Positions 11,082 to 31,978 of a stretch of DNA of 64,000 bases are shown piece by piece (positions within the stretch are counted from its first letter, which is position 1; each line of letters opens with the position of its first letter). Origin of the DNA: Chitinophaga lutea (GTDB lineage Bacteria; Bacteroidota; Bacteroidia; Chitinophagales; Chitinophagaceae); contig NZ_RPDH01000003.1 of assembly GCF_003813775.1 (NCBI RefSeq), forward strand, positions 124,001 to 188,000, given 5' to 3'. The notes beneath the pieces are model-generated. The model searched no databases. It was not told where the DNA came from and worked only from the letters and a program-made list of their open reading frames with translations. Made by a program: the position numbers and the translations under genes.

Positions 11082-11111
11082 CAGCGGCATCATCCCAAAA
11101 AATGTATCATC

Positions 11112-12782: not shown

Positions 12783-14099
12783 TTATCCCTTTCCTTCCTT
12801 CACCAGTTCCCGGCGGATGGCGTAGAGCAGCTCCGGCGAAGTGATTTCTTCTTTCTGGTTGCTGATCAGCTTCAGGCAGCAGAAATAGGCGATGTTGTTG
12901 ATGTTCGAGCCGGTGAGCTCGTGTTCGTTCGAAATATGCTCGAGCGAAATGTCGCTGGCAAACTTCACCCGTTCGGGGAACGACCGTTCCCAGAGAATAT
13001 AACGTTCTGTTGCGGAAGGCACCGGGAAGTACACCACGTTCTGCATCCTCCGAAGGAAAGCCTCGTCCATATTGGCTTTGAAGTTGGAAGCGAGGATGAT
13101 GAGGCCGTTGTAGCTTTCGATGCGCTGCAACAGGTAACCCACTTCCTGGTTGGCGTATTTGTCGTGCGCGTCATGGATTTCGGTGCGTTTGCCGAACAGC
13201 GAATCCGCCTCATCAAAAAAGAGGATCCACTTTTTCTGTTCCGCCCGGTCAAATATCCTTGAAAGGTTTTTCTCCGTTTCACCGATGTATTTCGATACCA
13301 CTTTGGACAGGTCTATCCGGAACACGTCGAGCCCGGTGGATTTGCCCAGCAACGTGGCCGCCATGGTTTTGCCCGTGCCGGGAGGGCCGTGGAACAACGC
13401 GCAGTAGCCGCGTTTCATCCGCTGTCCGAACTGCCACTCGTGCAGCAGCGTATGGTGGTGTTTGATCCATTCTTCGATTTCGCGGATTTGCTGGAGGGTG
13501 TAACCGTTCAGTACAAGATCGTCCCATTCGCGGGAAGTGCTGATGTATTCCGCCGCAAACTCGGAGGAAAAACGGGGGTGGCTGATTTGCCCGGTGAGCC
13601 AGAACTCCAGTGTTTCTTCGGCCAGCACGAGCCGCCCGCCCATCATCGGTTCGCCGTAGGGGACCGTTTCGATGGAAAGGATGCCTTTCCTGAAAAATAC
13701 GCTGCCATGCAGCAGGCGGTGCTGCAGCTCTACCCGGCGGTTCACGTCGTTGCCGGCCAGGATGAACAGGAGGGTTTCGCCGGTGGGCAGGGTGCCGCGG
13801 TGGTGCAGGCTTTTGGAACCGCCGAAGTCGATGAAATTGCTGCCGTCGGGCAGGTATTCTTTGATGATGTCGTCGTAAAAGGAGGGTTGCAGATGAGGCG
13901 CCAGGGCCAGCAGCAGGCACACGTATTCATCGGCGTCCGGCTGCTGCTCTTCCATCCAGAGGGCGAACGGGCTCCCGTCGTGCCAGTACGCATCGGCATC
14001 TACCGTTACGTCGTCGGTTTTGCCGAAGTGCAGCGCCAGGCGGCCGGAGATGTAACTGCGCAGGTATTGGAGGGGAATATGAAAAGAATACGGGGTCAT
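12783..14099 (-). CDS. eCIS AAA+ ATPase (Pvc15-like)
   Basis: The 438-residue protein has an N-terminal region specific to injection-system ATPases (about 1-200) and a C-terminal AAA+ module. Walker A is GPPGTGKT at 238-245. Walker B is ILFFDEAD with D296 and E297. Sensor 1 is LASNF and the arginine finger is probably in AFLRRMQN. Proteins of this type (Pvc15 in Photorhabdus virulence cassettes) are conserved in eCIS loci and are thought to act in the producer cell in particle assembly or cargo loading. They are not ClpV-type sheath recyclers. It is the last gene of the operon, one base after the immunity-like gene. Confidence 0.88.
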   Translation of the reverse strand: MTPYSFHIPLQYLRSYISGRLALHFGKTDDVTVDADAYWHDGSPFALWMEEQQPDADEYVCLLLALAPHLQPSFYDDIIKEYLPDGSNFIDFGGSKSLHHRGTLPTGETLLFILAGNDVNRRVELQHRLLHGSVFFRKGILSIETVPYGEPMMGGRLVLAEETLEFWLTGQISHPRFSSEFAAEYISTSREWDDLVLNGYTLQQIREIEEWIKHHHTLLHEWQFGQRMKRGYCALFHGPPGTGKTMAATLLGKSTGLDVFRIDLSKVVSKYIGETEKNLSRIFDRAEQKKWILFFDEADSLFGKRTEIHDAHDKYANQEVGYLLQRIESYNGLIILASNFKANMDEAFLRRMQNVVYFPVPSATERYILWERSFPERVKFASDISLEHISNEHELTGSNINNIAYFCCLKLISNQKEEITSPELLYAIRRELVKEGKG

Positions 14100-14100
14100 G

Positions 14101-14655
14101 TTATTCGAGTTGTGAAAGGATTTGCAGATAGGATTTTAACTCCACTTTTTGCAGATTGTTGGCGTTCAGCTCCCCGCCCAGTGCGATGGCCGGCACAAAA
14201 CCGTAACATTCTTCGTACGTAATGGGCCCCAGCCGCTTCCGCGCTTTTTCGTACAGGTTGAAATAATAGTATTCGTTCAGCGATTCATCGGCGGTAACGG
14301 AGAAGTTGAGCAGGTCGGCAAGACCGAACTCCTCATACGTCGTTACATCGAGGTACGCGGGATCGAAAGAGTGATGTGTGCCGCCCTGTTCGAAAATGAC
14401 CCCGCCGAGCCCCGTGCGCACGAGCGGCGTCACACCTTGTAAATCCGCGGCCTGTTCCGTTTCCTGCCGCAGGTCGTCCGGGTCCACCAGCCAGAAAAAT
14501 CCGTTATTGAAAGAGCAGAAGCCGTCGGCTTTCCACATCTCTATCAGGAAGTCCGGTACTTTGCCGGTGTATTTACGGATGGTGGCTTCACTCGCGGGCG
14601 TAAACGTTCCCTCGTCTTTCGGGTGTTTGCGGAGGAAGATATCTATTTCGTCCAT
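14101..14655 (-). CDS. Tdi1-like immunity protein (GAD-like + DUF1851)
   Basis: The 184-residue protein has no signal peptide and should be cytoplasmic. Residues about 15-100 resemble the GAD-like domain (IRKYTGKVPDFLIEMWKADGF, FFWLVDPDDL). Residues about 115-184 resemble DUF1851, with the diagnostic ARKRLGPITYEECYGFVPAIALGG and a C-terminal YLQILSQL. This two-domain order is that of Tdi1 of Agrobacterium tumefaciens, which neutralises the DNase effector Tde1. The gene lies 5 bp after a DUF4157 protein whose C-terminus looks like a Tde1-type nuclease, the arrangement expected of an effector-immunity pair. The domain assignment is good by eye; that it protects the producer is inference. Confidence 0.8.
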   Translation of the reverse strand: MDEIDIFLRKHPKDEGTFTPASEATIRKYTGKVPDFLIEMWKADGFCSFNNGFFWLVDPDDLRQETEQAADLQGVTPLVRTGLGGVIFEQGGTHHSFDPAYLDVTTYEEFGLADLLNFSVTADESLNEYYYFNLYEKARKRLGPITYEECYGFVPAIALGGELNANNLQKVELKSYLQILSQLE

Positions 14656-14660
14656 GGTCG

Positions 14661-17600
14661 TCAGTTTATTTTGATCTTCACGTTTTCACTGGAATGTTTG
14701 GCGGGTTTCACTTTTTCCACGCCCTGTACAATGAGCGGCACCTGCGTTTTCCACTGGCTGCCCAGCGATGAGTTGACGTTGGTGGCGCCGTGCCCGCCGA
14801 ATTTGTCGCCTTCACCGCCTGCCACCTGGTCCACTTCATGCAGCAATGCCTTGCCGGACAGGAACGCGTCCGTTTTGCTTTCGGCCATGCTCTTCGCCTT
14901 GATGTCGAGCGCGGGCGGTTTCAGGGTGGGCGACGTGATCTTCAGTTCGTCGTACGATTCTTTCAGGTATTTCGACAACAGCTTCTGCCGTTCCATTCGC
15001 TTGCCACGGTCGAGGCCCGGCGTGTCCCTGCCCAGTTTCTCGAAGTTGTAGCGGTTGGCCAGCCAGTTCGCGATCTTCATATTGTTGATGGCCACCTCCT
15101 GCATTTTGAGCTGATGCTGGAACTCCCCGGCCGGATGCGCGGGATTCTTCACAAAGGTAAGGGCTACCACGTCCATTTTGTCTTTCAGGTTGTCCGTCCC
15201 TTTGAGCTGGGAAAGTACGCCGGCCAGCAGGGTGAACTGCGTATCGAGGTCGGCCTGTTTTTTGGCGGCCTCGGGGGGCGTGTCTGCGGGTGTGCGTTTG
15301 ATCTGCCCGATCTTGCTCAGGATGCCGCGGGCCGTGTTCACCGGGCCCACATTGGCCGGGTCGAGGCCCTGCAGCCGCGTCAGGTAGTCGTTGGCCAGGG
15401 TTGGGGTGGAAGCGATGTAAATTTCCGCGCTTTCGTCTTTGCCCTTGAAATACACGGAGTGTGATTTCTGATCGCCGCCTGTGAAGGTTTTGCGGATCTT
15501 CAGCCAGCCCATCAGTTTTTCCTTGGCTTTGGCGAGGAACTTCTTGCCTACTTTCACCACCCAGTCGATCACCTTGTCGATCGCCTTGTCTACCGGCGCA
15601 CGCAGCTTCTTGATGATGGTCACCACCTTGTCGGAGATCTTGCCGAGGCCGAGGAAGTTGGCGAGGAAACTGATGGCCAGGCTCAGCATGCCGCCCAGCA
15701 CGCTTTCCACCTTGTTCGCCGCTTTGCCGATGGCGCCGCCGGCAATTTCCACCATGCTGTCGATCACCGCCATGCCCACCTGCGCGATCTGCTGTATTTT
15801 CTGCACGAGGAACATGATGGTGTTGTAAATGGAGATGATGGACTGTATGAATGCTCCCGCAGGGTTGAGGCTGCTGAGCAGTTTCACGATGGCGGCCTGC
15901 ACCACGGTAACGGTCACATAGGTAGTAACCTCTGAAATGAATTGTGCTTTGAGTTCTTCGATTTTGTCCTGCATTTTGTCCCATGCCGCCGCCGGCCCTT
16001 CGTTCACCAGCGTCTGCACCACGTCGAAGCCGGCTTCCATGGCTACCACGGCAGTTTCGCCGATGGCTTTCACCAGTTTGCCGCGAACGTTCTGCCAGGT
16101 GAGGCCGAATACGGACAGGCCGAGCTTGATGATCTCTTTCAGTGTGAACGCCTGTGGAATGTAGATGTTGGCCCCTTTCAGCGAGCCCAGCAGCCAGTCG
16201 ATCAGGCCTTTTTTCAGCCAGGTGCCGAAGCGGTTCTTGAACTGGTTGAAGCCCTGTTTGGCGGCGTTGACGAGGTGGCCTACGAACACCATCGGCTTTT
16301 CGAGAATGGACTTGAACGCGCCGCGCACCTTTTGCAGGTAAGGCATGGCGCCCGGGGCTACCACGGAGAAGATGATCTCCAGCAGGTCGAAGATGGTATT
16401 CATCGCCCAGTCCGCGAACGAAGCCGCGAAACCGCCGAATACCTTGAATACTTTGGAGAAGAGGTTGGGCAGGATGATAAAGTCCATCACCTCGATGGAT
16501 TTCAGCATGGCGATGAAATCCTGCGGGAAAGATTTTACCATGTCCATCAGCCCCTTCATGGCTTTCTGGAACCAGGCGAAGGCTTTGTCTACCGCGTTGC
16601 CTTTCTTGATATTGTCCCAGATGTCCTGCCGCCCGATCATTTTCATGAACCCGCCGATGAGCGTGTCCGCATTGCGGGGCACGGATTCGTTGGTGATGGG
16701 GTTGAAACCGATCACGGCGCAGAGCAGGTCGAAACCGGGCGCTTTGGCGGCTAATGCGGCGAGCGGTTTGAGCACGGCGTCGCGGATGAACTGCATGATC
16801 TCTTCGAACAGCCCCTTGATGAAGCTGATCACGTCGTTCACCGGCGTGCTGAAAATGCTGACGGCCCGGTCCCAGGTCTGGCCGGGAGAGAATATGATAT
16901 CGGACAGATCCAGTTCGCTCCTGAACTGGTTGATGCCGTTGATGATCTGGCTGACGAGGTTGGAGAATTTCTTGAGTTTGCCTTCCACCCAGCTGCCGGC
17001 TTTCTCGAACACGCTGTATTTCTCCAGCGCCTGGGTGATCAGGCCGCCGCCGGGCAGGAATTCGACGATGGCCCGCAGGATGTTGGCGGCGCTGGTATCC
17101 ACGCTGGCGCCGGTAATGGGGTTGGTGCCCACCACGATGGTGAACATCCGGAAACCGGGTACATAGGTGTGCGCTTTTTCAGACATCCAGTCGAGCGCAT
17201 CCTGCCAGGAGGGAATGCGCAGTTCGATGCGCTGCACCTGCGGCTCAACGCGCGGCGCTGCGGGCGCTTCCGTACGTTGTACGCTGTGGCCCTGCTGCAC
17301 CACGTGGGTCAGCTCATGGGCCAGCAGCTGTTTACCGCCGGAGGTGCCGGGCTGGTATTCGTTCTGGTTGAAGAAGATGTGATTCTGGTAAGTGAACGCC
17401 TTGGCGCCGGCTTCATTACTGAGTTTGGACGCGTCGGGCCCGCTGTGGATGCGTACGTTGCTGAAGTCGGCATTGAAGCGGTGCTCCATGAAGTTTTTCG
17501 TGTCGTCAGACAATGCATGGCCGCCGCCGCTTTGCTGGCGGATGCCTTCGCCGAGGTCGTTGATGGCGGACGATGGTGTGCCTTCCCCTTTCCGCTGCAC

Positions 17601-18221
17601 CTTGTCTTCCTTCGGCGCAGCGTTCATCTGCACTTTATCGTCTTTCGCGGGAGCGGCTTCTTTTTTCTGTATTTTATCCTCCTTCGCCGGGGCGGGCGCC
17701 TTCTCGTCCTTGGCGGCTTCTTTTTTCTGTACTTTATCTTCTTTCGATGGAGCGGTATTCACCGGCGCCTTCTCATCTTTCGCAGGCGGCGCCTCTTTTT
17801 TCTGCACCTTGTCGTCTTTCGGGGGCGCCTCTTTCATCGCGGGTTTCTCTTCCTGCGCCGGTGCTGCTTTCATCTGCACCTTGTCCATTTTCGCCGCGGC
17901 GGGCTTGGGCTGTTCAGGCGCTGGCGACGGTTTTACAGGCGGCTTTTTAGGGCCTTTTTCGGGCGCGGCTTTCGTTTGTACTTTCTTGTCTTTATCGGCG
18001 GTTTTTTTACCGTCTGTAACCGGCGCGCGCATCACTTTGTCCGCCATCTGATCGGCTTCCTTTTCAGCGGGGTCGTTGGGTGCGCCGATTTTCAGTTTGG
18101 CCTGGACGGGGGTGGAGGAGGAGGCAAAAAACGGCTTTTCCTCGCTTTTCTGCGAAGATGATTTTTTCTGCGGCGGGTTGGCGACAGAGGTTTTAGCAGC
18201 CGTATCTGCACCTGATTTCAT
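14661..18221 (-). CDS. DUF4157 eCIS cargo protein with C-terminal Tde1/Ntox15-like nuclease domain
   Basis: This 1186-residue protein is the likely payload. Residues 1-220 are disordered and Lys/Pro/Ala-rich with repeated DKVQKKEA units. Residues about 222-316 are the DUF4157 (eCIS core) domain with an intact metalloprotease-like motif H302-E-L-T-H306. Residues about 330-960 form a long helical region with hydrophobic helices and an internal duplication (PGF...NPIT near 353 and again near 492). The C-terminal 225 residues end in a domain with H1128-E-V-D1131, then VAGG and NVNSSLGSQWK, which matches the HxxD motif and surroundings of the Ntox15/Tde1 DNase family. It sits between the tape measure gene and an immunity-like gene. 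DUF4157 proteins are eCIS-linked; DNase activity is inferred. Confidence 0.78.
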   Translation of the reverse strand: MKSGADTAAKTSVANPPQKKSSSQKSEEKPFFASSSTPVQAKLKIGAPNDPAEKEADQMADKVMRAPVTDGKKTADKDKKVQTKAAPEKGPKKPPVKPSPAPEQPKPAAAKMDKVQMKAAPAQEEKPAMKEAPPKDDKVQKKEAPPAKDEKAPVNTAPSKEDKVQKKEAAKDEKAPAPAKEDKIQKKEAAPAKDDKVQMNAAPKEDKVQRKGEGTPSSAINDLGEGIRQQSGGGHALSDDTKNFMEHRFNADFSNVRIHSGPDASKLSNEAGAKAFTYQNHIFFNQNEYQPGTSGGKQLLAHELTHVVQQGHSVQRTEAPAAPRVEPQVQRIELRIPSWQDALDWMSEKAHTYVPGFRMFTIVVGTNPITGASVDTSAANILRAIVEFLPGGGLITQALEKYSVFEKAGSWVEGKLKKFSNLVSQIINGINQFRSELDLSDIIFSPGQTWDRAVSIFSTPVNDVISFIKGLFEEIMQFIRDAVLKPLAALAAKAPGFDLLCAVIGFNPITNESVPRNADTLIGGFMKMIGRQDIWDNIKKGNAVDKAFAWFQKAMKGLMDMVKSFPQDFIAMLKSIEVMDFIILPNLFSKVFKVFGGFAASFADWAMNTIFDLLEIIFSVVAPGAMPYLQKVRGAFKSILEKPMVFVGHLVNAAKQGFNQFKNRFGTWLKKGLIDWLLGSLKGANIYIPQAFTLKEIIKLGLSVFGLTWQNVRGKLVKAIGETAVVAMEAGFDVVQTLVNEGPAAAWDKMQDKIEELKAQFISEVTTYVTVTVVQAAIVKLLSSLNPAGAFIQSIISIYNTIMFLVQKIQQIAQVGMAVIDSMVEIAGGAIGKAANKVESVLGGMLSLAISFLANFLGLGKISDKVVTIIKKLRAPVDKAIDKVIDWVVKVGKKFLAKAKEKLMGWLKIRKTFTGGDQKSHSVYFKGKDESAEIYIASTPTLANDYLTRLQGLDPANVGPVNTARGILSKIGQIKRTPADTPPEAAKKQADLDTQFTLLAGVLSQLKGTDNLKDKMDVVALTFVKNPAHPAGEFQHQLKMQEVAINNMKIANWLANRYNFEKLGRDTPGLDRGKRMERQKLLSKYLKESYDELKITSPTLKPPALDIKAKSMAESKTDAFLSGKALLHEVDQVAGGEGDKFGGHGATNVNSSLGSQWKTQVPLIVQGVEKVKPAKHSSENVKIKIN
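17590..17890 (-). repeat. Degenerate tandem repeats encoding DKVQKKEA-type units
   Basis: Inside the 5' part of the DUF4157 gene, about eight imperfect units of 11-16 codons recur (variants of KEDKVQKKEAAPAKD, with DKIQKKEA and DKVQMKAAP). The region is low in complexity and charged. It may be a flexible leader for loading or export, and copy number may vary between strains. Confidence 0.7.
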
Positions 18222-18240: not shown

Positions 18241-19689
18241 TTAAATCCATTCCGTCCAGATCAGTTTTTTGGGTTTGCCGAACGGCAGCGCGGTGACCTG
18301 GTATCCCCAGGGCAGTTCGCCCAGCAGCCATTCGTCGTAACTCAGGCTTTCCACCTGCAGTAGCCAGTTGCCTTCACTGTCTTTGGCCGACAGTTTGCCG
18401 GCCCGCTGCAGGAAACTGCTGCGCAGCCCGTCGATGCTGGTGTTTTTCAGCACCGGCCAGTTACCGATCACGGAGCGCAGTAAATCCTCGGCTTCCCCGA
18501 TGTGCGCCGCTTCCAGCGAATTGATCTTTTCGATGGGGCGCTGCACGGGGATGCCGCATAATATTTTGTTGAAAACCATTTCATGTTCTCCCACGCCGGT
18601 ACGGCCCGTGGCCAGGTATTCCAGCAGGGCCGCGGCATATCCTTCGCGCAGCAGGCCATTGCCGTCCGCCGCGCCGCAATTGCGGAGAAACGGGGCAATG
18701 AACGGCGCCAGCAAAATGAGGCCGGCGTTGTGAATGTAATAGGAATCGTATTCATCGTCCGGCAGCATCTCTTCCGCAGGTGTTGCGGCCGGTGTTTGTT
18801 GCAGCGTCGACAATACGCACTGCACCAGGGTTTCCTTTTCCTCCGCCGTTTGCATCGCTTCACCGGTGCTGATCCCGTGTAAGCGTTCCCGTATGCCGGC
18901 GGCGGACAATGTCCGTAATTCGGGCACGGCAGCATAGGCCAGCTGCGTCATTGCACCGGAAGCCATAGACAGGAGGGGGGCATCGCCCTGCACGACCGCC
19001 TTTAACTGCCAGCTGAAAAACTGCCGCTCCGCAGCGGCAAACGTGATGGGAGAGAGGGCCAGCAAAATGCGGCGTACGGCCAGCGTGCGGGCATAGGCCG
19101 TATCATGCAGCAACGGCAATATCTGTTGCTGCCACGGACGTGAAAACTGTAAAAGGAAACGTTGCCTTGCGGCGGGATGTTGGTAAAGAAGGGTGCGAAG
19201 TTCCTGCGCCGTGCCGGGAGATGCGGAAAGAAGGTTGAGTAAAGCAGCTTCCCAAACTTTGACTTGGTCAGGGGATGCCCACCAGAGGAGGACGCCTGTC
19301 CGCAAAAAATGAAAAAGTACCAACTCAACCCTACTTTCTGTTACACTTTGTGCATCTCTTTTATACACTATCAAATTACCGTCGTTCGCAGGGGCAGGGG
19401 CCGCGCTCCTTTTGGGCTGGGCCCTGCTGGAAAGGGCGGCCTCCAGCTGGGTGGCAACCGAGGCGGTGATCGCCTCCTCGAGGTTGCCGGCATCAAGGCC
19501 GTCCACATTTATACTAAGATAATCAATTATGATGTTTTCATTGTCATATAAATCCAAGACTTTTTCGATGGCCGCAGTCAACCTGCTTTCACACAATGAA
19601 GCCACGAGCCGCTGCAATTCCAGCGCCTGCGCTTCAGTGCCGTTCAGGATCACCTCCACGGTCTGCTTCTGTATCAGATGCATCGCCAT
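18241..19689 (-). CDS. eCIS tape measure protein (Pvc14-like)
   Basis: The 482 residues open with HLIQKQTVEVILNGTEAQALELQ and ENIIIDYLSINVDGLD, the signature N-terminus of the contractile-injection-system tape measure family. A later segment YIHNAGLILLAPFIAPFLRNCG and the downstream EHEMVFNKILCGIPVQRPI are also conserved in it. The protein sets tube length during assembly. The start shares one base with the previous gene's stop (TGATG at 19691-19687), so the two are translationally coupled. An alternative start lies two codons downstream. The DUF4157 cargo gene follows after 19 bp. Confidence 0.85.
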   Translation of the reverse strand: MAMHLIQKQTVEVILNGTEAQALELQRLVASLCESRLTAAIEKVLDLYDNENIIIDYLSINVDGLDAGNLEEAITASVATQLEAALSSRAQPKRSAAPAPANDGNLIVYKRDAQSVTESRVELVLFHFLRTGVLLWWASPDQVKVWEAALLNLLSASPGTAQELRTLLYQHPAARQRFLLQFSRPWQQQILPLLHDTAYARTLAVRRILLALSPITFAAAERQFFSWQLKAVVQGDAPLLSMASGAMTQLAYAAVPELRTLSAAGIRERLHGISTGEAMQTAEEKETLVQCVLSTLQQTPAATPAEEMLPDDEYDSYYIHNAGLILLAPFIAPFLRNCGAADGNGLLREGYAAALLEYLATGRTGVGEHEMVFNKILCGIPVQRPIEKINSLEAAHIGEAEDLLRSVIGNWPVLKNTSIDGLRSSFLQRAGKLSAKDSEGNWLLQVESLSYDEWLLGELPWGYQVTALPFGKPKKLIWTEWI

Positions 19690-22948: not shown

Positions 22949-25900
22949 TTAACCTAAAGCGGTGGCGCCAAGGCGTACGGGGTTCGTGTCGTTCCCATCC
23001 TCGCAGTCGTGCAGGGTGGCTGGCGGATAAATGCTCTTCAGTTCGTATAACAATTGTATCAGCACCGCATGCGTTTGCAGCAGCTGTATTTTATCGTTGT
23101 CGTAAAAGCTGATGAAAAGGGCGTTCACGGCGTCGGTATCGATGCCGGCGCAGGTGGGCGTGAGGGCATTGATCATGGCGTCGAACGATACCTTCTGCAA
23201 GCCGGCGGCGTAGTGGATCTTCACCCACTGGTGGATGGCGTGCGTGTATTGCTGCATGATGCCGGTCACGCATTTGCACAGCTCCTTCTCCGGTACGTTC
23301 TTGTTGGCCGGTTGCAACGTGAGCAGCCTGCGCAGCCGCTTTTCGAGATAGGCGTCTTTGGGCTGGAGTTTGGCGTTTTCCACCAGCCAGGCGCACCAGG
23401 CTTTTTTAAGGCGGCTGTAAATGAAACAGGCGGAATTGTTCAGCCAGTAGTTCACCACCCAGGTGCGGATACCGGCATGGGCGGACGCGGGAATGGTGCT
23501 GATGGCGGCCACCAGCGGCGCCACGGCTGCATCATAAACGGCCTCGGCTTCTGCCTGCACGAGCGGGGAATGCCCCTTCTCCTGCATCTTGTCGCGGTAG
23601 GCTTCGTTCATGGCGGCGATGATGGCCACGGTGCGCAGGCACATTTCATGTTCCAGTACGCCGGTTTTGGCGGGCACAGGGTTCTGCGCGTTCCACAACA
23701 GGTCGGTGAGGTCGCAGAGCAAAGTGCCGGGGCATGCCTCGTTGGCAACCCAGCAGATCTTGGGCAGCAGGTGCGACGGCGTTTCGAGCCGGATCGTGTT
23801 TTCGGCGTAACGCCGGTATTCGATCTTTTTGTTCTGCACATGCCAACCGGGCATCACAAACGTGAGCCGGAAAGAATACGGGTCGTTGTCGTAACAGGTG
23901 TGGCAGCCGTCGTCGAGGCAAATGGGCAGCAGCAGCTGGCCGGGTATGCGGGGCCGCAGCAGCAGGTGCTCGATGATCACCATGTCTTCCACATCCGGGA
24001 TATTGAGCATGGCGCTCAGCCGCAGCTGCAGCCCGGCAATGTTGAGGATGTTGCAGGGCGATGCAATGGTATGGTCGATGGCCCGGGCGCGGTTGGGACT
24101 GGCCTTTGGATACGCTTTCAGGAAATTGGTCTTGACCTTCAGCAGGTCGGCCAGCGCGGTTTCCTTGTTGGCCTGTATCTCGCTGTACTGCAGCAGCGCA
24201 TAGTCCGTGAAATTCTCGGCAAAGCGGGCCATCAGGTGGTCCATGAACTGGTTGCGGCGGGCAAGACCGCTCTGGCCGGGCTCTTTCAGGTCCTGCAGCT
24301 TCGCGGCGTTCAGCGTAGGGAAATAGAGGTCGGTGATGTTCTCCACGTCGGCATTGCCCAGCAGGCGGGTGAAATAACTCCGCGTTTTCGTTTCGTCGAG
24401 TATGAACAGCTCGCCGATGTGCTGGAGCTGGGCGAGGTAGTTCACCAGTATCTGCTCGAAGAACAGCAGGTAAGCTTTCATCTGCCGGGCCTGTGCCTTG
24501 CGCAGGTCGGAAACACCGTCGGGCAGGCCGCTTTCGCTGATGCCGTAAGTGGCCGGGAAGGAATATTGTACGGGGTAGTAGTCTTCAAAGTCGCGCACCT
24601 CGCCCACAGGCAGGTCGAGCGTGTTTTTGACGCCGGCCGTTTTCATGTGCTCGCGGTTGCCGCGCAGGAACTGCAGGGTGGCATTGAGCTCCTCGTTGCT
24701 GGCTTTCAGGAAGGGATAACCGTTCTTGAAAAAGAGGAACTTGGAACGCTGCAGGTACAGCCGGGGCTGGTGACCTTCGGTGATGGGCAATGCCCAGGGG
24801 CGGCTGTGGTAGATCACGTCGCCGCGACTGTCGTAACTCGTCATCAGGAAATTGGTGACGGAAATCACGCCGGGTATGTCCATGATCTCGTTGATCATAT
24901 CGGAGGCATACACTTCGCTCCGCAGCGTGGCCTTGTCGAGGTCTTCGTTGCGGATGAACCCGTTCTGCAGCAACGGCCCGTTGAAAATAGCCGTCACCGG
25001 GTATTTTTCGTTGAGCAGCTGCGCGAGGGTATATACGGGAATGGTGGGGTTCAGGTATTGTTCGATGCGCACGATGATTTCAGCTTCCACTTTTTCGATG
25101 TCCGCATCGGGCTGCAGCTCGATGTCCATACAGACGCTTACGTCTTCCATCGGCACCAGGCTCACGTTGCAGAACGTTTCATCGAGGTTGCGGTGGGCAT
25201 GGAGGTTCTTGCGCGTTTCACCGAGCAGCACGTGGATTTTTTCGATGTTCTTTTTATACGTGTGCACGATGCCGGCGGCGTCCTGGATGGCTTTGGTGAT
25301 ATCGTCGGCTTTCAGCACGGCGGCGCCGGATGAAGGGATATACACATTCAGGACGGCGGAGGTGAGGGCGATGATGACGCCGTTATCGAGCGTTACATCG
25401 AGGTCTATCTGTATGGCCTGGCGCACGGCCTTGGCCACGTTGGCGTTGGTGACGGGCAGCCCGTCTTTTCCGAGAATCGATTTGACCACCACCTGCGTCA
25501 CTTTGCGGGCGGGGTCGGTGAGCAGCTGCAGTTCGTCCCAGCGCTGCGTCACGATGGTATAGTCGGGAAGGCGCAGTTCGAGCACGGCATCCTTCCGCTC
25601 GTCGTTATCGTAAATGAGCGTCTGGTACACCCGGCCGTCGTTGATGTCGCCGTACACGGGGTCGCTTTCGAATTCGATCAGCACGTCGTACAACCCTTTT
25701 ACGCTGACTTTTTCGTTGGGCTGCAGGTTGCCGCTGGTTTTGGGCTGATAGGTCAGTTTGCCGGCCTTTTCGTCCGCGTAAAACTCTGTTTCGCAGTTGC
25801 AGTGGTCGCCGCAGGGCTCATCGGCGGCGGGCGTGTCGTCGCAATGGCATACCCGCGGTATCAACCAGGCATTCTGGATGCCGGCCTGGTCTATCAGCAG

Positions 25901-26218
25901 CTTGCGGTAGTCGCGGATAGTGAGGGGATTGATGGTGAGTATCTCGTGGGCCTCGAAAAACGCCTGGCTGTGCAGCTGGCTTTGCGACAGGTAGGCGGCG
26001 AAGATGTCTTTGCGGCTGAAGCCGGTCCGGTACGCCAGGTCGGTAAGGGCAAAACACATCAGTTCCAGCGTGGTGATGCCGGGGTCGTGGAAGTTGTAGT
26101 CGGTCCACAACTTGCTGCCCAACTGCTGGATGTACTGAATGCCTTGCTGCCGCAGGAAGTAAAAATCTTCCGGTGGTCGAAGCTTCGGGGTTTTGGGTAT
26201 GGAGGGCGTCTGTTCCAT
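22949..26218 (-). CDS. eCIS baseplate protein (Pvc12/gp7-like)
   Basis: The 1089-residue protein begins with the conserved block LRQQGIQYIQQLGSKLWTDYNFHDPGITTLELMCFALTDLAYRTG, in which the HDPGIT motif marks the Pvc12-type baseplate wedge family. A Cys-rich insertion near residues 123-142 (DNA 25793-25850) has six Cys and two His, and a second cluster lies near 760-800 (CLDDGCHTC, CWVANEACPGTLLC). The protein should pair with the baseplate-J-like protein encoded just upstream (18 bp gap) to form wedges around the spike. It is longer than many relatives because of a C-terminal helical extension of about 250 residues. Confidence 0.82.
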   Translation of the reverse strand: MEQTPSIPKTPKLRPPEDFYFLRQQGIQYIQQLGSKLWTDYNFHDPGITTLELMCFALTDLAYRTGFSRKDIFAAYLSQSQLHSQAFFEAHEILTINPLTIRDYRKLLIDQAGIQNAWLIPRVCHCDDTPAADEPCGDHCNCETEFYADEKAGKLTYQPKTSGNLQPNEKVSVKGLYDVLIEFESDPVYGDINDGRVYQTLIYDNDERKDAVLELRLPDYTIVTQRWDELQLLTDPARKVTQVVVKSILGKDGLPVTNANVAKAVRQAIQIDLDVTLDNGVIIALTSAVLNVYIPSSGAAVLKADDITKAIQDAAGIVHTYKKNIEKIHVLLGETRKNLHAHRNLDETFCNVSLVPMEDVSVCMDIELQPDADIEKVEAEIIVRIEQYLNPTIPVYTLAQLLNEKYPVTAIFNGPLLQNGFIRNEDLDKATLRSEVYASDMINEIMDIPGVISVTNFLMTSYDSRGDVIYHSRPWALPITEGHQPRLYLQRSKFLFFKNGYPFLKASNEELNATLQFLRGNREHMKTAGVKNTLDLPVGEVRDFEDYYPVQYSFPATYGISESGLPDGVSDLRKAQARQMKAYLLFFEQILVNYLAQLQHIGELFILDETKTRSYFTRLLGNADVENITDLYFPTLNAAKLQDLKEPGQSGLARRNQFMDHLMARFAENFTDYALLQYSEIQANKETALADLLKVKTNFLKAYPKASPNRARAIDHTIASPCNILNIAGLQLRLSAMLNIPDVEDMVIIEHLLLRPRIPGQLLLPICLDDGCHTCYDNDPYSFRLTFVMPGWHVQNKKIEYRRYAENTIRLETPSHLLPKICWVANEACPGTLLCDLTDLLWNAQNPVPAKTGVLEHEMCLRTVAIIAAMNEAYRDKMQEKGHSPLVQAEAEAVYDAAVAPLVAAISTIPASAHAGIRTWVVNYWLNNSACFIYSRLKKAWCAWLVENAKLQPKDAYLEKRLRRLLTLQPANKNVPEKELCKCVTGIMQQYTHAIHQWVKIHYAAGLQKVSFDAMINALTPTCAGIDTDAVNALFISFYDNDKIQLLQTHAVLIQLLYELKSIYPPATLHDCEDGNDTNPVRLGATALG

Positions 26219-26236: not shown

Positions 26237-29200
26237 TTAGGGGCATCCGCAGCCTGCTGTGTTATCAGGCGCGGGTACGGGAATGTTCTGATTGATGACC
26301 GTGATCACATGCTGCGCTGCCTTGACCGGTACGATGATGGCCGTCTGCCGGTCGGGCGAGATCGTTTCTTTTTCCACCCCGGCATGATAGAGCCGTACAT
26401 CGGTCACATAATCCACGTAATACTGTTCTTCGATAAAGTTCACGATCATGGCGTTGGTGATGCGGGATTCGAAACGCAGCTCCGCGCCTTCCTGGTAAGC
26501 CCAGGGAGCGAGGAACCGGGTGATCTCTTCCTGCAGCCGCGCCCGGAAAAGGGTTTTGTCGTATTGCGGATGGAAATGCACGCTGGCCTCCACACGCACC
26601 TGTTCGTATTCGGGGTTGCACACGTGCAGCTGCACAAAAGGCGAAATGAGCGTGCGCAGGTAGTCTTTTACTTTTTCGAGCTCGCTGACATAGGTGAACG
26701 GCCGCAGCGGGTCTATGCCGTTGCGCCGCTGGAGATTGGGCACGGTGATCACCGTCACGTGGCCGGGCGCGAGCTCATTATACTTGCCGGGCTCCAGGCG
26801 CGTATGCGGAATGCATTTGGCGCGGTACAGCCCGGGGAACTGCTGCAGGATGAGGTGCTCGTAATCCCAGATGTTGATCCCGCGGTCTTTGTGCCGCAAC
26901 AGTTCGCTCACCCGGATGTGGAACTGCTGCTCCGTTTCACCGGGGAACCCGCCGAATGAAGAGAACGGCTGCTGCACGCTTTTCACTTCGGGCACGGGCT
27001 CGGCCAGTTTGGCGATGGTGGCCGCGGCAAGGGGATTGGGCAACGATAGCGAAGGGTCGCCGGGTGTTACGAAAGTGGCGGACACGGCCTGCGGCAAAAT
27101 GGAGACTATCCTGCAAACCGCCTCATCGTCCTGCGACACGGTGGCCTTCAGCCAGATGGTGCCGCCGGGCAATACATGATGCGCCGTATCGGCTTCGCGC
27201 GGAATGCTGAACGCGATGATGCCGCTCTGTACGAGCTGGTTGGTGCCGTCGGCTACGTCCGTGGCGGCCAGCGGCACCCAGCTGTCGCCGGCGAGGTAAT
27301 GCCAGCGCACATGGTCTTCCGGTTTGGCCACGAGCGGGTTGGCGGTGCTTTCATCGATCTGGAAAAGCATGTTCAGCTTGCGCGGCGGGGCGAATTGCCG
27401 GATGCCGATGTAGAATTCGGCAAGACTGTTCACTACCGCCGCGGCATTGTGCCTGAACTGCGGCATCAATGTTCCGCCCGCGCCGCTTTCTTTTTTCTCC
27501 CCGAAAGGATACAGATGGAAGAATTCCGCTTCCACACTGGTCGTAGCCTCGTACTGCAGGTACATTTCCTGCAGGGTGGGCGGTATGAACACGCCGGGCT
27601 CTTTACTGCTGGCGGGATTGCCCGTTTTGGCGATATCGGCGAAATAGGCGACGCGCTTGGCCAGCGTTTCCTGGTACTTCAGATCGTTCGTGAGGTTGTA
27701 GCGTACGTAGCCGCTTACGCTGGCAGGACTGAAAGGCTTGTTCACATCGCTGAATATCGCGGGGATATCCGTGTATTCATCCACATAAAAATGTTCCTTC
27801 AGTTTGCCGCTGGAAGAAGTGGCGTCCACCGTATCGAAAATATTGAGCGGGTGGCGTATCACCTTCCAGCCGTCGTTATGACGGAGGATGTGCAGCTCGG
27901 GCACGTCGCCCAGGTTATCGACCGTACCGGGCCGCCAAACGAACACGGGTTTAACGGTAGCGCCGGGTTTCTGGAATATCTCGTCGCACCCGATCAGCAG
28001 CATCGACCCTTTATGCGGAATGGCCCCGAACGCCAGGAACGGTTTGGAAGGGTCCATCACGCCGGCATCCGTCTGCACGTAAATGTTCTTCAGTTTATCG
28101 GACGCCACCGTCAGGTCGAAGCGGGTCATGATGGTATTTTTCAGCAACTGCCAGGCAAAGGCGCGCATGGGCTGGTGCACGAGCGTGATGCGCAGCACCG
28201 GCAATACGGTATCGAACGACGCCTGGTGTATGGTGGCATTGTACGGCGCCGTGCCGGGCTGTTTGGCCAGCATGGCGGCGGTGATCTCGAATCCCTGCAC
28301 CCCGTCCGGATTGATGCGGAACTGGGTGATGGGAATGGGCTCCCAGCCTTTGGCGGTGGTAATATGCAGCTGGAAATCGCCTGGCTCCAGCCCCGTTACG
28401 TCGTTGCCGGTGCGGATGATGAGCCGGATGCTGCGGTTGCCTTCCCGCAGGAACAGGAAGCGCGACGCAAAGGCGAAACCCACGCGCGCAGCCGGCATAT
28501 TGACCTGTTGAATGCTTTCATAGTCCACCCGCGTTTTGTTGGCAAAGGGATGCCAGGGCGTCAGCGGCGCCTCGAACGGCGCGCCCGCGCCATCGGCGGA
28601 ATCCGCTTTGGGGGAGGCATAGATGCGGTTGGAGGAAACTGTCGCAACGGTATCCTCGTTGTTGGATACGAATACGGATTGCAGGTGACTCACCACCGCC
28701 GTGTTCACGGCGATATCTTCGTCGACGGTATACCAGGCGTCCGCGCCGTTGGCGAATTTCCCGGCCTTCAGGCGGGTGCCTTTCTGCACGAGGTGGTCGT
28801 TCACGAACTTCGCCAGCTCGAAGGTAATGTACACCTGGTTCGGTGCAGGCCCTTTCTTCGCCAGCTGCAATATGTCGGTATAATAAAGCTCGAGGTGCTC
28901 GCGGGTGAGGGTATTGAGGTGCTCGCGCGAATAGGAGAGCAGCTTCAGGAACGACAGGAACAGCGTGGTGTGCGGTTCATGTGTGCCCCATTCGCCCAGC
29001 GTACGCTGCAGTTCCTTTTTGGCTTCCTCGGTGATGCGCGACAGCGCCTTGATGAATACATCCACGGCATCCTTGAAAAAGTTGTGGTTGGTGGCGAAAA
29101 ACAGCCTGCGTACGATCGGGCCGCTGCCGTAGATGTTGGTGTCGGCCACGATGGTGCTGGCCCAGGCGCTGCTGAAAGTATGCGTGATCACCTGGTTGAA

Positions 29201-29779
29201 ACTCTCGGACGCCTCGCCGAAGATGTTCAGCTCGATATTGGCATCGTTATCCACCGCGGAGGAAGGCGAGGCATTGTACTGCCGCAGCTTTTCGAGCTGG
29301 TCTTTCAGCCGCGTGCCGATCAGCGACGTGATCACCGACTTCAGCACGAGGCCGTCCGGAAGGTGCAGCGAAAGCTGTTCTATCTGCCAGGCCAGCGAAT
29401 AAAGGGCGCTGTATATTTTACCGAAATGTGTTTTGGCTTTGGCGGATTGTACAGTGGGGATTTTACCTTCCTGCAGAATCGTGAGGTGCTCCTTCAGTTC
29501 GTCTGTAAACGCCGTGGTATCCTGCGTGGCGATGAGCGCCAGCTGCACGGTAACGTCGTTCCGGAAAAATCCCTGCCAGTTGCCGTCGGGCTGGTTCAGG
29601 GTGGAGAAGTAGCGGATGAGGCCGGACAGCTGGTGCGTGAACACCAGGTCGTGTTCAGGCTGGTGATGGTCCACCGGCGCATAAGAAGGCGCCAGCGCCG
29701 GTTGCACCCGGGCCTTCTGGGATGTTCCGCTGCGTTGCAGGAACAAGGGGTTCAATACAAGTGGACAATCCTTTGACAT
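26237..29779 (-). CDS. eCIS baseplate J-like wedge protein (Pvc11/gp6-like)
   Basis: The 1180 residues end in a baseplate-J region: PGHVTVITVPNLQRRNGIDPLRPFTYVSELEKVKDYL, then PFVQLHVCNPEYEQVRVEASVHFHP and TRFLAPWAYQEGAELRF, all typical of the gp6/Pvc11 family that forms the ring of wedges. The N-terminal 500 residues are helical and contain repeated segments found in large Bacteroidota members. It is preceded by the gp25-like gene (9 bp) and followed by the Pvc12-like gene (18 bp), the standard order. The C-terminal CGCP is unusual but short. Confidence 0.85.
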   Translation of the reverse strand: MSKDCPLVLNPLFLQRSGTSQKARVQPALAPSYAPVDHHQPEHDLVFTHQLSGLIRYFSTLNQPDGNWQGFFRNDVTVQLALIATQDTTAFTDELKEHLTILQEGKIPTVQSAKAKTHFGKIYSALYSLAWQIEQLSLHLPDGLVLKSVITSLIGTRLKDQLEKLRQYNASPSSAVDNDANIELNIFGEASESFNQVITHTFSSAWASTIVADTNIYGSGPIVRRLFFATNHNFFKDAVDVFIKALSRITEEAKKELQRTLGEWGTHEPHTTLFLSFLKLLSYSREHLNTLTREHLELYYTDILQLAKKGPAPNQVYITFELAKFVNDHLVQKGTRLKAGKFANGADAWYTVDEDIAVNTAVVSHLQSVFVSNNEDTVATVSSNRIYASPKADSADGAGAPFEAPLTPWHPFANKTRVDYESIQQVNMPAARVGFAFASRFLFLREGNRSIRLIIRTGNDVTGLEPGDFQLHITTAKGWEPIPITQFRINPDGVQGFEITAAMLAKQPGTAPYNATIHQASFDTVLPVLRITLVHQPMRAFAWQLLKNTIMTRFDLTVASDKLKNIYVQTDAGVMDPSKPFLAFGAIPHKGSMLLIGCDEIFQKPGATVKPVFVWRPGTVDNLGDVPELHILRHNDGWKVIRHPLNIFDTVDATSSSGKLKEHFYVDEYTDIPAIFSDVNKPFSPASVSGYVRYNLTNDLKYQETLAKRVAYFADIAKTGNPASSKEPGVFIPPTLQEMYLQYEATTSVEAEFFHLYPFGEKKESGAGGTLMPQFRHNAAAVVNSLAEFYIGIRQFAPPRKLNMLFQIDESTANPLVAKPEDHVRWHYLAGDSWVPLAATDVADGTNQLVQSGIIAFSIPREADTAHHVLPGGTIWLKATVSQDDEAVCRIVSILPQAVSATFVTPGDPSLSLPNPLAAATIAKLAEPVPEVKSVQQPFSSFGGFPGETEQQFHIRVSELLRHKDRGINIWDYEHLILQQFPGLYRAKCIPHTRLEPGKYNELAPGHVTVITVPNLQRRNGIDPLRPFTYVSELEKVKDYLRTLISPFVQLHVCNPEYEQVRVEASVHFHPQYDKTLFRARLQEEITRFLAPWAYQEGAELRFESRITNAMIVNFIEEQYYVDYVTDVRLYHAGVEKETISPDRQTAIIVPVKAAQHVITVINQNIPVPAPDNTAGCGCP

Positions 29780-29788
29780 GTTGCGTGT

Positions 29789-30235
29789 TTACAATGTATC
29801 GTTGATGTTAACCGGGGCGTACAGGAAACTGCTGATCTCGGACCCCTCGCTGATGTAGAAGGGGTACACGAAATTGAAGCGGGAATTGGACGTTTTCACG
29901 GTGAAGTCGAGCTTGATGTACAGCACGCCTTCCCATTCCCGCGAGCCGTCGATGCTCAGTGAATCTATCTTGATGCGGGGCTCGTAAAAAAGGATGGCGG
30001 TTTCCACTTTCTCCAGCATCAGTGTTTGCAGCCCCGTATCCATCGGCTCGAATACGAACTCCTGCATGTTGCAGCCATAGCGGGGCTGCATGATGCGCTC
30101 GCCGGGCAGCGTGGTGAGCAGGATGTGCAGGCTGCTGTAAATGTCCTGCACGTCTTCCAGCATCTCTACCGTGCCGCTTTTGTTGAAGGTGGGGGGAAAG
30201 CTCCAGCCCCTGCCGAGAAAATTGGTGTCTGTCAT
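29789..30235 (-). CDS. eCIS baseplate protein, gp25-like (Pvc9)
   Basis: The 148-residue protein shows the gp25/lysozyme-like wedge pattern: SSLHILLTTLPGERIMQPRYGCNMQEFVFEP, followed by ETAILFYEPRIKIDSLSID. gp25 proteins nucleate sheath assembly on the baseplate. The gene lies 6 bp after the VgrG-like gene and 9 bp before the baseplate-J gene. Length and motif order agree with the family. Confidence 0.9.
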   Translation of the reverse strand: MTDTNFLGRGWSFPPTFNKSGTVEMLEDVQDIYSSLHILLTTLPGERIMQPRYGCNMQEFVFEPMDTGLQTLMLEKVETAILFYEPRIKIDSLSIDGSREWEGVLYIKLDFTVKTSNSRFNFVYPFYISEGSEISSFLYAPVNINDTL

Positions 30236-30241
30236 CGTCCG

Positions 30242-31978
30242 TCAGTTTATTTGTACAAGCCCGCCTTTTACGGCGGTAATGCCGTTGCCGGCCGTCAGTT
30301 CGCAACCGCCGCCGCCGTCCGCCTTGAAGCCCATGGTGGCTTTGATGTCGGCCGACTTGCCTTCCGCCTTCAGGTCGGCGGTCGCTTTTATTTTAATGTC
30401 TTTGGGGCTTTCGATGCTGATGCCGTCGCTGTTCATCGTGATCTTGTTGCCGTGCTGGTCTTCCAGCTTGATGGATTTATCGTCGTCGGAAATGGCGAAT
30501 TTGTTGGCGCCGGGCGTTTCGAGCCGGAAGCTTTTTTTCGCGTCGTCGAACAGCATCTTGATCTCGCTGCGGGTCACGAAACCTTTTTCATCGTTATCGT
30601 CTTTGCCGGGGAGCGGCGCCGGGAGGGCGCTGCTGTTGAGGCCGCCCAGTATCACGGGTGCATTGGGGTTGCCGTCGATGAAGCCTACCAGCACTTCGTC
30701 CTTTATTTCGGGCCTGAAAAACGAACCGCGTTTGTTGCCCGCGTCGAGCGTGCTTACGCGCGCCCACATCCCGGTTTCTTTACCGTCGATGAAGGGCAGC
30801 ACTACCTGCACGCGGTCTTCGCCTTCGGGGTCGCTTTCCAGCTGCGTCACGATGCCGACGTGCAGCGAGGTGATGCCCTGGCTGAGCCGCAGCCCGGCAG
30901 GCATCGGCGCCAGCGGTACGTTGGGCTGAAAGCCGATCTGTGCGTCGGTGGTCCAGTTGCCGTTGGCGATCTGGTGGCGCACGCCCTGGATGAACACGTT
31001 GCCTTCAAAACGTTTGCCGGTGCCCTTCATCGTCACGATGGTGCCGGGCTTTATTTTCGGGGTGCCCTGGAAATTGGCGCGGCCTACGATTTTGGCGAGC
31101 CGGGCCACGAGCAGCAGCGCATCGGCGGCCGCCTGCAATTCCTGCACATTGGTTTTACTGTTCAGCCGCAGCAGGGGAGCGGGGGAACCGGCGCTCTTCG
31201 CGAGGTCTTTGGCGGAAATGTTGCCGTTCAGCGTGCCGGAAGGTTCTGCGGCTTCCACTTCGCTGAGCTCCTGCCCGGAGTGGTCCCAGAGGTAGGCCTT
31301 CAGCGTATCGGGCTGCGTGCGCGCATCCATCTCGAGGTCGGCCTCCAGCAGGGAAGAACCGTATTGCACGGTTTCCACCGGCGAGGCGCCGAGGTCGGGT
31401 TTTTTAATGATGCCCTTGCCGTCTTCGATGACGCAGAACAGCCCAGCGGCCTGCGCGCGCTGCAGCATGAAGTCCCAGTCGCTCAGGTTGTATTGCGCCA
31501 CCACTTTATGTTTCACACTGGTCGCGCCTACTTCCTTCTGCAGCTGGTATTTGCCGAGAATATCCTCGATGATCTCGCTGTCTTTCTGCTCCTTGTAATA
31601 TTTGCTGACGGGCGTAAGCGATGCGGGGAATATCTTATCCCGGCATTCCACGGTAAACAGGGAAGTGTTTTTGCGGATCTTGATGCTGTTGCGCACCACC
31701 ACGCCCTTGAAAATCGTTTCGTCCTGCCCGCGGTAACCGGCCTTGATCTCTATTTCCTTGCCGGGAATAAAGTCGTCGCTGTCGGAAGCGGGAAAGGTCT
31801 GTCTGGATGCCTCACCGTCCTGGATAATAATTACGGCCCCGGGGATGCGGTTGATCTCGCGGGTAACGGTGACGGACGCTATCTGGTAGGTGCGCGGCAC
31901 GGCCTGTCCGCCGGACAGGAGGGTGACCGTTGCTACGGACGGCGTTGCGGAGGTTTGTATGTCGCGGTTCTCAGGCAT
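30242..31978 (-). CDS. eCIS spike protein, VgrG/gp27-gp5-like (Pvc8)
   Basis: The 578 residues have a gp27-like hub (about 1-360: EINRIPGAVIIIQDGEA, NLSDWDFMLQRAQAAGLFCVIEDG), an OB-fold gp5 domain (VGIVTQLESDPEGEDRVQVVLPF, WARVSTLDAG, DEVLVGFIDGNPNAPVILGGL) and a C-terminal beta-helix of short repeats (SIKLEDQHGNKITMNSDGISIES). It forms the trimeric spike that is topped by the PAAR protein. No extra effector domain follows the beta-helix. The start overlaps the LysM gene by 8 bp. Confidence 0.92.
   Translation of the reverse strand: MPENRDIQTSATPSVATVTLLSGGQAVPRTYQIASVTVTREINRIPGAVIIIQDGEASRQTFPASDSDDFIPGKEIEIKAGYRGQDETIFKGVVVRNSIKIRKNTSLFTVECRDKIFPASLTPVSKYYKEQKDSEIIEDILGKYQLQKEVGATSVKHKVVAQYNLSDWDFMLQRAQAAGLFCVIEDGKGIIKKPDLGASPVETVQYGSSLLEADLEMDARTQPDTLKAYLWDHSGQELSEVEAAEPSGTLNGNISAKDLAKSAGSPAPLLRLNSKTNVQELQAAADALLLVARLAKIVGRANFQGTPKIKPGTIVTMKGTGKRFEGNVFIQGVRHQIANGNWTTDAQIGFQPNVPLAPMPAGLRLSQGITSLHVGIVTQLESDPEGEDRVQVVLPFIDGKETGMWARVSTLDAGNKRGSFFRPEIKDEVLVGFIDGNPNAPVILGGLNSSALPAPLPGKDDNDEKGFVTRSEIKMLFDDAKKSFRLETPGANKFAISDDDKSIKLEDQHGNKITMNSDGISIESPKDIKIKATADLKAEGKSADIKATMGFKADGGGGCELTAGNGITAVKGGLVQIN

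Follow-up and report, generated by a model that had tools for sequence, protein, structure and literature searches.

A putative Ntox15-type DNase cargo and its adjoining Tdi1-type immunity gene in an extracellular contractile injection system operon of Chitinophaga lutea

The stretch of Chitinophaga lutea DNA analyzed here, 64,000 nucleotides of contig NZ_RPDH01000003.1 (positions 124,001 to 188,000; hereafter the window), carries an operon for an extracellular contractile injection system (eCIS). Within this operon, on the same strand and between the tape measure and AAA genes, lie the two genes this work is about: a large cargo gene with an eCIS_core (DUF4157) domain and, directly downstream, a gene for a 184-residue protein. 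A first-pass annotation made from the sequence alone had described the two as a Tde1-type DNase cargo and a Tdi1-type immunity protein inside an otherwise complete eCIS operon. The operon was confirmed by genes for sheath, tube, baseplate, tape measure, AAA, and Pvc16-type proteins (Table 1), with gaps of no more than 223 bp between the listed genes. Both this location and the eCIS_core within the protein itself place the cargo among the eCIS effectors (EATs). No separate PAAR gene was seen in the operon, although no profile search was aimed at PAAR.

The cargo gene is an open reading frame with a predicted three-part layout, i.e., an N-terminal part holding the eCIS_core (with HELTH at residues 302–306), a carrier of about 570 residues, and a putatively exchangeable C-terminal Ntox15 DNase domain in which HxxD would form the active site. 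Comparison of the C-terminus with the Ntox15 profile, set beforehand as one of the points on which the annotation could fail, gave 65.3 bits, with the cut-off at 22.5. The same region matched, by sequence, the Ntox15 chains of solved complexes in the PDB (8g0k_A, 8fzy_A, and 8fzz_A; E 1.2e-13 to 8.6e-13). Motif positions given in the first-pass annotation were exact, comprising H1128-E-V-D1131, VAGG (from residue 1133), and NVNSSLGSQWK (from residue 1148). The counterpart of HEVD in the alignment is HNPD in 8fzz_A. Both H and D are replaced by A at this place in 8g0k and 8fzy, which agrees with the H279A/D282A form of the Bacteroidales toxin (PMC10470768). H and D are invariant in both cargo alignments (A1, four rows; A3, eight rows of full-length cargos), and the residues flanking the motif are likewise conserved. 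In NCBIfam, no model scored over its cut-off for the cargo or for the adjoining 184-residue protein. The profile and structure-chain matches support the assignment of the cargo as an Ntox15 DNase-domain protein.

The adjoining gene has the Tdi1 architecture proposed for it, with a GAD-like domain (PF08887, E 2e-12) and a T6SS_Tdi1_C (DUF1851) domain (PF08906, E 3.3e-20) both over the Pfam cut-off. It follows the cargo gene at a distance of 5 bp, and its product matched the immunity chains 8g0k_B (E 8.6e-13) and 8fzz_B (E 8.1e-12) by sequence; a match to the Agrobacterium immunity structure 6itw was marginal (E 0.21). These results support the gene as a predicted source of the cognate Tdi1-type immunity protein for the cargo DNase. 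In the genome (6.6 Mb, four contigs), one eCIS_core, one Ntox15, and two Tdi1_C matches were found, and since one of only two Tdi1_C genes adjoins the cargo, chance pairing is not a serious option. The second Tdi1_C gene (202 aa, E 3.6e-11) lies on another contig (G000:C2, L041:9634-10242, minus strand), away from the sole Ntox15 gene, and is a candidate orphan immunity gene. A match to TssC of the type VI secretion system (T6SS) was observed on the contig of the window, about 430 kb from the pair (G000:C3:575839-577125). The pair sits in the eCIS operon and is neither encoded with nor fused to VgrG, Hcp, or PAAR of a T6SS locus; the only Ntox15 toxin of the genome belongs to the eCIS, despite the T6SS gene on the contig.

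Table 1. Features of the cargo–immunity pair and of the surrounding eCIS operon (positions in the window).
Feature	Position	Strand	Evidence
AAA ATPase of eCIS operon	12783..14099	-	PF00004 E 1.9e-27; 1 bp past immunity gene
Tdi1-type immunity protein, 184 aa: GAD-like (5-63) + Tdi1_C (115-183)	14101..14655	-	Pfam; 8g0k_B, 8fzz_B
eCIS cargo, 1186 aa (N-terminal part, eCIS_core, long carrier, C-terminal Ntox15 DNase domain)	14661..18221	-	
Exchangeable toxin part, about residue 900 to end	14661..15521	-	Identity break P0011 vs P0014
Ntox15 domain, residues 1032-1184	14670..15128	-	PF15604, Pfam E 8.5e-18; 8g0k/8fzy/8fzz
HxxD motif H1128-E-V-D1131	14829..14840	-	Motif position; alignment to 8fzz_A
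Hydrophobic carrier module, 266 aa, residues 640-905	15507..16304	-	BLAST; common to cargos with different C-termini
eCIS_core (DUF4157) domain, residues 237-312	17286..17513	-	PF13699, Pfam E 1.6e-29
Tape measure protein	18241..19689	-	PF19268 E 7.3e-108
Tail-fibre-like protein, 1080 aa	19689..22931	-	Residues 11-576 match 9wt0 chain a, E 1.5e-51
Baseplate protein, Afp12/Alg12-like	22949..26218	-	7b5h_AD E 1.9e-112; 7aeb_A E 4.7e-104
Baseplate J (Afp11-like)	26237..29779	-	PF04865 E 4.4e-08
gp25 baseplate wedge	29789..30235	-	PF04965
Hub/spike protein	30242..31978	-	PF05954, PF04717
CIS_tube protein	31971..32654	-	PF19266 E 1.3e-51
Tail tube protein 2	32878..33321	-	PF06841
Tail tube protein 1	33333..33764	-	PF06841
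Sheath	33794..35719	-	PF17482 E 1.3e-15
184-aa operon protein	35753..36307	-	Without Pfam family
Pvc16-type protein	36307..36849	-	PF14065 E 1.5e-19

A survey of co-occurrence, proposed along with the first-pass annotation, revealed that a Tdi1 relative directly follows the cargo gene in all 16 readable loci with an eCIS_core cargo of this type. After removal of duplicates (L006 = L054, L007 = L120, L127 = L071, and L176 = L048), these distinct loci are the window, L048, L054, L060, L066, L071, L110, L116, L120, L126, and six Chitinophaga loci (L175/L191, L177/L192, L178/L193, L179/L194, L180/L195, and L187/L196); P0004 and other protein matches without a locus were left out of the count. They belong to Bacteroidota, including Chlorobiaceae, and to Thiothrix and Roseospira. 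The Ntox15 end is clear in 15 loci and borderline in L187/L196, and the gap between cargo and Tdi1 gene is 1–17 bp in eight of the nine loci where it was measured, the ninth (L120) having 276 bp. A tape measure gene was present in the pieces read of 15 loci; L066, at a contig edge, shows only cargo and Tdi1. All of eCIS_core, tape measure, Tdi1, and AAA were found in the 13 kb read of each of the six Chitinophaga loci, and these six share the order tape measure, cargo, Tdi1, AAA with the window, L048, L060, L071, and L116 (11 of 16 loci). Variants of this order comprise an alpha-amylase-like gene ahead of AAA in L126 (Thiothrix), a second, short eCIS_core gene ahead of AAA in L054, the order tape measure, AAA, cargo, Tdi1 in L120, and L110, in which other frames lie between tape measure and cargo and the piece read holds no AAA gene. 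Shortly past the immunity gene, L110 also contains a 141-aa frame (L110:9385-9810) that resembles residues 782–900 of the window cargo and is perhaps a remnant of a displaced cargo end. The Roseospira locus L066 was considered as a toxin without immunity and rejected, as Tdi1_C lies directly downstream (L066 frame 4818-5468), behind an antisense frame.

The closest named relative observed, C. alhagiae of the same genus (L048 = G679), has 68% identity in the cargo, 66% in the immunity protein, and 84% in AAA; the proteins P0002 and P0005 are closer, at about 90%. In the databases, the C. alhagiae pair is entered as 'eCIS core domain-containing protein' and 'T6SS immunity protein Tdi1 domain-containing protein', so parts of the pair already bear names there.

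The pairing was also looked at in genome samples of three levels. Among 294 genomes of the family, eCIS_core was matched in 113 and Ntox15 in four, of which three are eCIS fusions (G000, G167, and G096) and one, in G026, is a protein that matches DUF4280 weakly and is encoded near a VgrG-like gene; Tdi1_C adjoins all four. Ntox15 was found in seven of 79 genomes of the genus, and a Tdi1 relative comes directly after it in every one. In one further genome, the cargo shares the carrier (76%), and its Ntox15 profile match is borderline (E 0.029 with filters off, missed in another scan), with Tdi1 next to it (Pfam E 5e-13). In L187/L196 and L180/L195, the cargo ends in a strongly divergent Ntox15-like sequence (HSAD...GG...NSY.GS), and yet the gene after it is a Tdi1 relative. 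The end in L187 was missed by the Pfam search of that genome, and the two perhaps represent a further Ntox15 subfamily. In the phylum sample, four of 395 genomes matched, namely that of the window, G323 (= L071), G464, and G653, with the weak hits in G464 (E 4.8e-6) and G653 (E 4.5e-4) showing no eCIS_core, Tdi1, or Ntox15 by profiles in their short loci. An apparent rarity of the eCIS–Ntox15 type, suggested by only four proteins found with residues 1010–1186 as query, was dismissed as a limit of word-based search.

The pairing also proved more general than the first-pass annotation had it. In a scan of genome contigs, 79 of 176 relatives were read as loci, nine of them eCIS fusions. The Ntox15 frame was recovered in 73 of the 79, and Tdi1 was the next gene in 66 of these, from which we conclude that Ntox15 generally goes with Tdi1, irrespective of the delivery system. 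As to the other seven, three end at a contig edge (L082, L087, and L099), L066 has its Tdi1 as described, L096 holds both profiles in one frame, and no adjoining Tdi1 was found by profiles in L109 and L124. A tree of 81 Ntox15 domains required four changes of eCIS acquisition compared to a mean of 11.4 after shuffling, with several long branches and only one change forced by supported branches.

In Chitinophaga, toxin and immunity genes differ together on a conserved carrier. The cargos P0011 (Chitinophaga sp. 22536) and P0014 (C. oryzae) are 82–98% identical in 50-residue blocks over window residues 201–900 and 7–32% identical from there to the end, with lower identity also in the variable N-terminal part before residue 201. 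Over their last 150 residues, they agree fully with L192 (= L177) and L195 (= L180), respectively. Between L177/L192 and L180/L195, identity amounts to 88% in the carrier module and 92% in AAA (304 residues compared), and to 22% in the toxin and 26% in the immunity protein. As both are divergent between conserved carrier and AAA flanks, toxin and immunity gene have changed together. A conserved carrier, an exchangeable toxin end, and a matching immunity gene are the features of polymorphic toxins, and all three are found here, the exchange being sharpest in the single contrast of P0011 with P0014. Across 14 loci, toxin and immunity distances correlated at 0.92, with a partial Mantel r of 0.88 after removal of carrier distance that was reached by none of 5000 permutations; three of these loci are near relatives, and the permutations ignore relatedness. 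The set consisted of 14 of the 16 loci scanned, without L054 (no carrier module) and L176 (near-duplicate of L048), and did not include L187. Judging from these comparisons, toxin and antidote seem to be swapped among related bacteria as a cassette-like unit, on a delivery protein that is otherwise similar.

The same data bear on the idea that the window pair is inherited baggage, in which the DNase is inactive or its neighbor guards against foreign Ntox15 toxins and not against its own cargo. Gut Bacteroidales commonly carry orphan Tdi genes that confer protection from foreign Tde (PMC10470768), and the second Tdi1_C gene of C. lutea, apart from the sole Ntox15 gene, fits that pattern. Set against this are the invariant active-site H and D in the eight aligned full-length cargos, the open frames, the pairing in 16 of 16 loci, and the tracking of toxin by immunity distances, so that we regard baggage as scarcely probable.

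Upstream of the exchange point lies the hydrophobic carrier module, for which Pfam gave no family (residues 640–905). By BLAST, the module is present in three of four further Ntox15 cargos and in 19 of the 48 cargos of the wider survey described below, and it matched 1025 database proteins at E ≤ 1e-5. Among the best 120 of these, 17 carry Ntox15, nine PF13930 (Endonuclea_NS_2), and two PF14412, an AHH nuclease family; most of the others carry eCIS_core only. Hydrophobic stretches span residues 761–820 and 838–863, and no glycine-zipper repeat was found in the window carrier by pattern search. We suggest that the module may serve packing or membrane passage.

The wider survey in Chitinophagaceae covered 48 complete eCIS_core cargos of at least 600 aa in 42 loci (L042-L045 and L135-L172), and by profiles none of the 48 had an Ntox15 end or an adjoining Tdi1. 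For 31 cargos, an untruncated gene on the same strand, unlike the window eCIS proteins, overlaps or follows at less than 200 bp. Pfam searches of these 31 genes returned TPR (four members) and WD40-type families, among 25 of the 73 families listed. Nineteen of the 31 encode at most 260 aa, including one Imm33-like, one DUF5953, one pentapeptide-repeat, and two CIS_tube proteins as well as a few weak others. Many of the 31 genes belong to no known family, and they are possible novel immunity genes, a role that we do not assert for any of them. Endonuclea_NS_2 cargos numbered five by Pfam and four by sequence pattern. The neighbors of the latter four (L149, L153, L170, and L171) are a doubtful 75-aa frame, an eCIS_core gene, an AAA gene, and an opposite-strand frame, i.e., no clear candidate immunity gene was found beside them. 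A nuclease cargo as such may therefore not demand an adjoining antidote; the Endonuclea_NS_2-like enzymes may, however, be inactive in the producer cytoplasm, which makes the contrast only suggestive.

This contrast matters for the choice of target. The best-known eCIS act on animal cells, which counts in favor of a particle aimed at eukaryotic microbes such as fungi or protists, with an immunity protein that merely shields the producer from a non-discriminating DNase. The window immunity protein also matches the NCBIfam TaeI model, though far under its cut-off (82.7 of 450 bits needed). A precedent is TafE of Acinetobacter, an Ntox15 T6SS effector that degrades bacterial and yeast DNA and has an immunity protein, yet whose deletion affected only antifungal activity (PMC9973263). 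A eukaryotic target sits less well with the four Endonuclea_NS_2-like cargos that lack a clear immunity gene (n = 4, identified by pattern, one with the doubtful 75-aa frame) and with the joint change of toxin and immunity, which looks like competition among relatives and would be unneeded for self-protection alone. On balance, we consider it unlikely.

For the particle itself, the Afp12-like protein came closest in the PDB to 7b5h, presumably a cyanobacterial contractile injection system (CIS) anchored inside the cell, followed by the AlgoCIS entries 7aeb and 9wsz; the match of the tail-fibre-like protein, 9wt0, is an AlgoCIS entry with the tail fiber on the baseplate wedge. The first match would suit a particle that acts inside or among the producer cells, like the cytoplasmic CIS of Streptomyces in cell death, where the immunity protein would be an antidote deciding which sisters survive, and CIS lethal to the cell that makes them do exist (PMC10066040). 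The extracellular AlgoCIS (PMC8894135) comes almost as near in the baseplate protein and nearer in the tail-fibre-like protein, and we judge action on producer cells to be very unlikely. Either branch of the first-pass annotation, which had proposed an antibacterial eCIS or one whose cargo is toxic to its producer, is compatible with all observations. Outside the operon, two adjoining serine beta-lactamase-family proteins (PF00144) are encoded on the plus strand at 9648-12779, convergent with the eCIS genes.

Toxin, antidote, and delivery machine are each known from other systems. The Tde1/Tdi1 pair of the Bacteroidales T6SS shares with the window the homologous toxin domain, the same HxxD, and a homologous immunity protein from an adjoining gene, whereas its toxin is fused to Hcp in a GA2 T6SS and that of the window to eCIS_core and carrier in an eCIS (PMC10470768). 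Bacteroidales Tde1 is reported to be a Mg-dependent DNase that requires HxxD, is abolished by H279A, and is inhibited by Tdi1, which inserts into the toxin core and disrupts the active site (PMC10470768); by homology, these properties may carry over to the window pair. Tde1/Tdi1 of Agrobacterium, the founding DNase–immunity pair, has an immunity protein with GAD-like and DUF1851 domains as in the window, but its toxin is a T6SS cargo that needs the adaptor Tap1 and an N-terminal glycine zipper (PMC4096383, PMC10240207), through which the N-terminus permeabilizes membranes (PMC10240207). Closest on the delivery side are Cgo1 and Cgo2 of AlgoCIS, DUF4157 cargos of a Bacteroidota eCIS with related particle genes, which have other C-terminal domains and for which the word 'immunity' is absent from the main text (PMC8894135). 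These DUF4157 cargos fill the tube lumen and are reported to be loaded into the particle and set free when it contracts (PMC8894135). EAT5 likewise combines an eCIS-linked toxin with an adjoining neutralizing gene; the toxin is RES-like (NADase) and its Xre-like antidote is encoded upstream, whereas the window has an eCIS_core-fused DNase with T6SS-type immunity downstream (Geller et al. 2021, PMC8213781).

We therefore do not claim the principle as new. The first-pass annotation overstated the novelty of an eCIS toxin–immunity pair, since such pairs were reported in 2021 (PMC8213781) and Ntox15/Tdi1 pairs of the T6SS are in print as well. A DNase domain fused to DUF4157 was also noted in earlier work, according to Danov et al. 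2024 (PMC11297309). What was not found described in the literature searched is the combination: in open-licence main texts, with figures and supplements outside the search, no paper joined Ntox15 with a contractile injection system, and the three papers joining contractile injection and Tde1 all concerned the T6SS. DUF4157 is absent from the main texts of PMC4096383 and PMC10240207, whose domain-architecture figures might show the architecture, and Fig. 5a of Geller et al. could show it too (PMC8213781).

Our preferred interpretation is a particle with a modular Ntox15 DNase cargo and a cognate Tdi1 immunity protein, with competing bacteria as its likeliest target, which we hold to be fairly probable. 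By analogy to AlgoCIS, the cargo would be loaded into the particle via its N-terminal part with the eCIS_core. On firing, the tube would release it into the target cell, where the carrier would help the DNase to reach the cytoplasm and DNA would be degraded. In the producer and its sister cells, the Tdi1-type protein would bind the DNase and disrupt its active site, as its Bacteroidales homologs do. Immunity genes suggest attack on relatives, the way toxin and immunity change jointly is consistent with bacterial rivalry, and the exchange of both suggests that other bacteria are at least among the targets of this weapon. Geller et al. 2021 argued for antibacterial eCIS and regarded it as a mystery that most antibacterial EATs have no immunity gene next to them (PMC8213781).

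Several points weigh against this interpretation. All three bacterial strains exposed to AlgoCIS particles survived, although Cgo1 inhibits E. coli if expressed inside it (PMC8894135), and the deletion phenotype of TafE was antifungal only. Joint divergence of adjoining toxin and immunity genes is a sign of co-inheritance, not of binding. A Foldseek search of the full-length cargo model against the PDB returned nothing at E ≤ 0.001, Ntox15 structures included, the AlphaFold model (eight rows) being poor (mean pLDDT 50.8, pTM 0.26) and, at this low confidence, mostly helical over residues 339–908. Furthermore, the C-terminus of the tail-fibre-like protein had no Pfam family over the cut-off in the window and two relatives; as it lacks a recognizable domain, it was discarded as a clue to the target, which is thus not named by any feature here. 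With these points included, antibacterial use of the particle still appears reasonably probable to us.

The loci described here bear on the question which eCIS aim at bacteria, as they form a class with an immunity gene in every readable locus that changes with the toxin. More broadly, a widespread eCIS branch might constitute an interbacterial polymorphic-toxin platform, in which a conserved eCIS_core and helical carrier would take up interchangeable toxin–immunity cassettes shared with other secretion systems at a fixed junction near residue 900 and free, diffusible particles would spare kin, although we advance this generalization tentatively, at slightly less than even confidence. Ma et al. 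2014 remarked that tde genes in organisms without a T6SS imply alternative secretion routes (PMC4096383), and the window pair provides one answer. The conserved carrier offers a handle on the loading and movement of eCIS cargos. Chitinophaga is among the hosts of this class, in which killing or sparing should hinge on one small gene.

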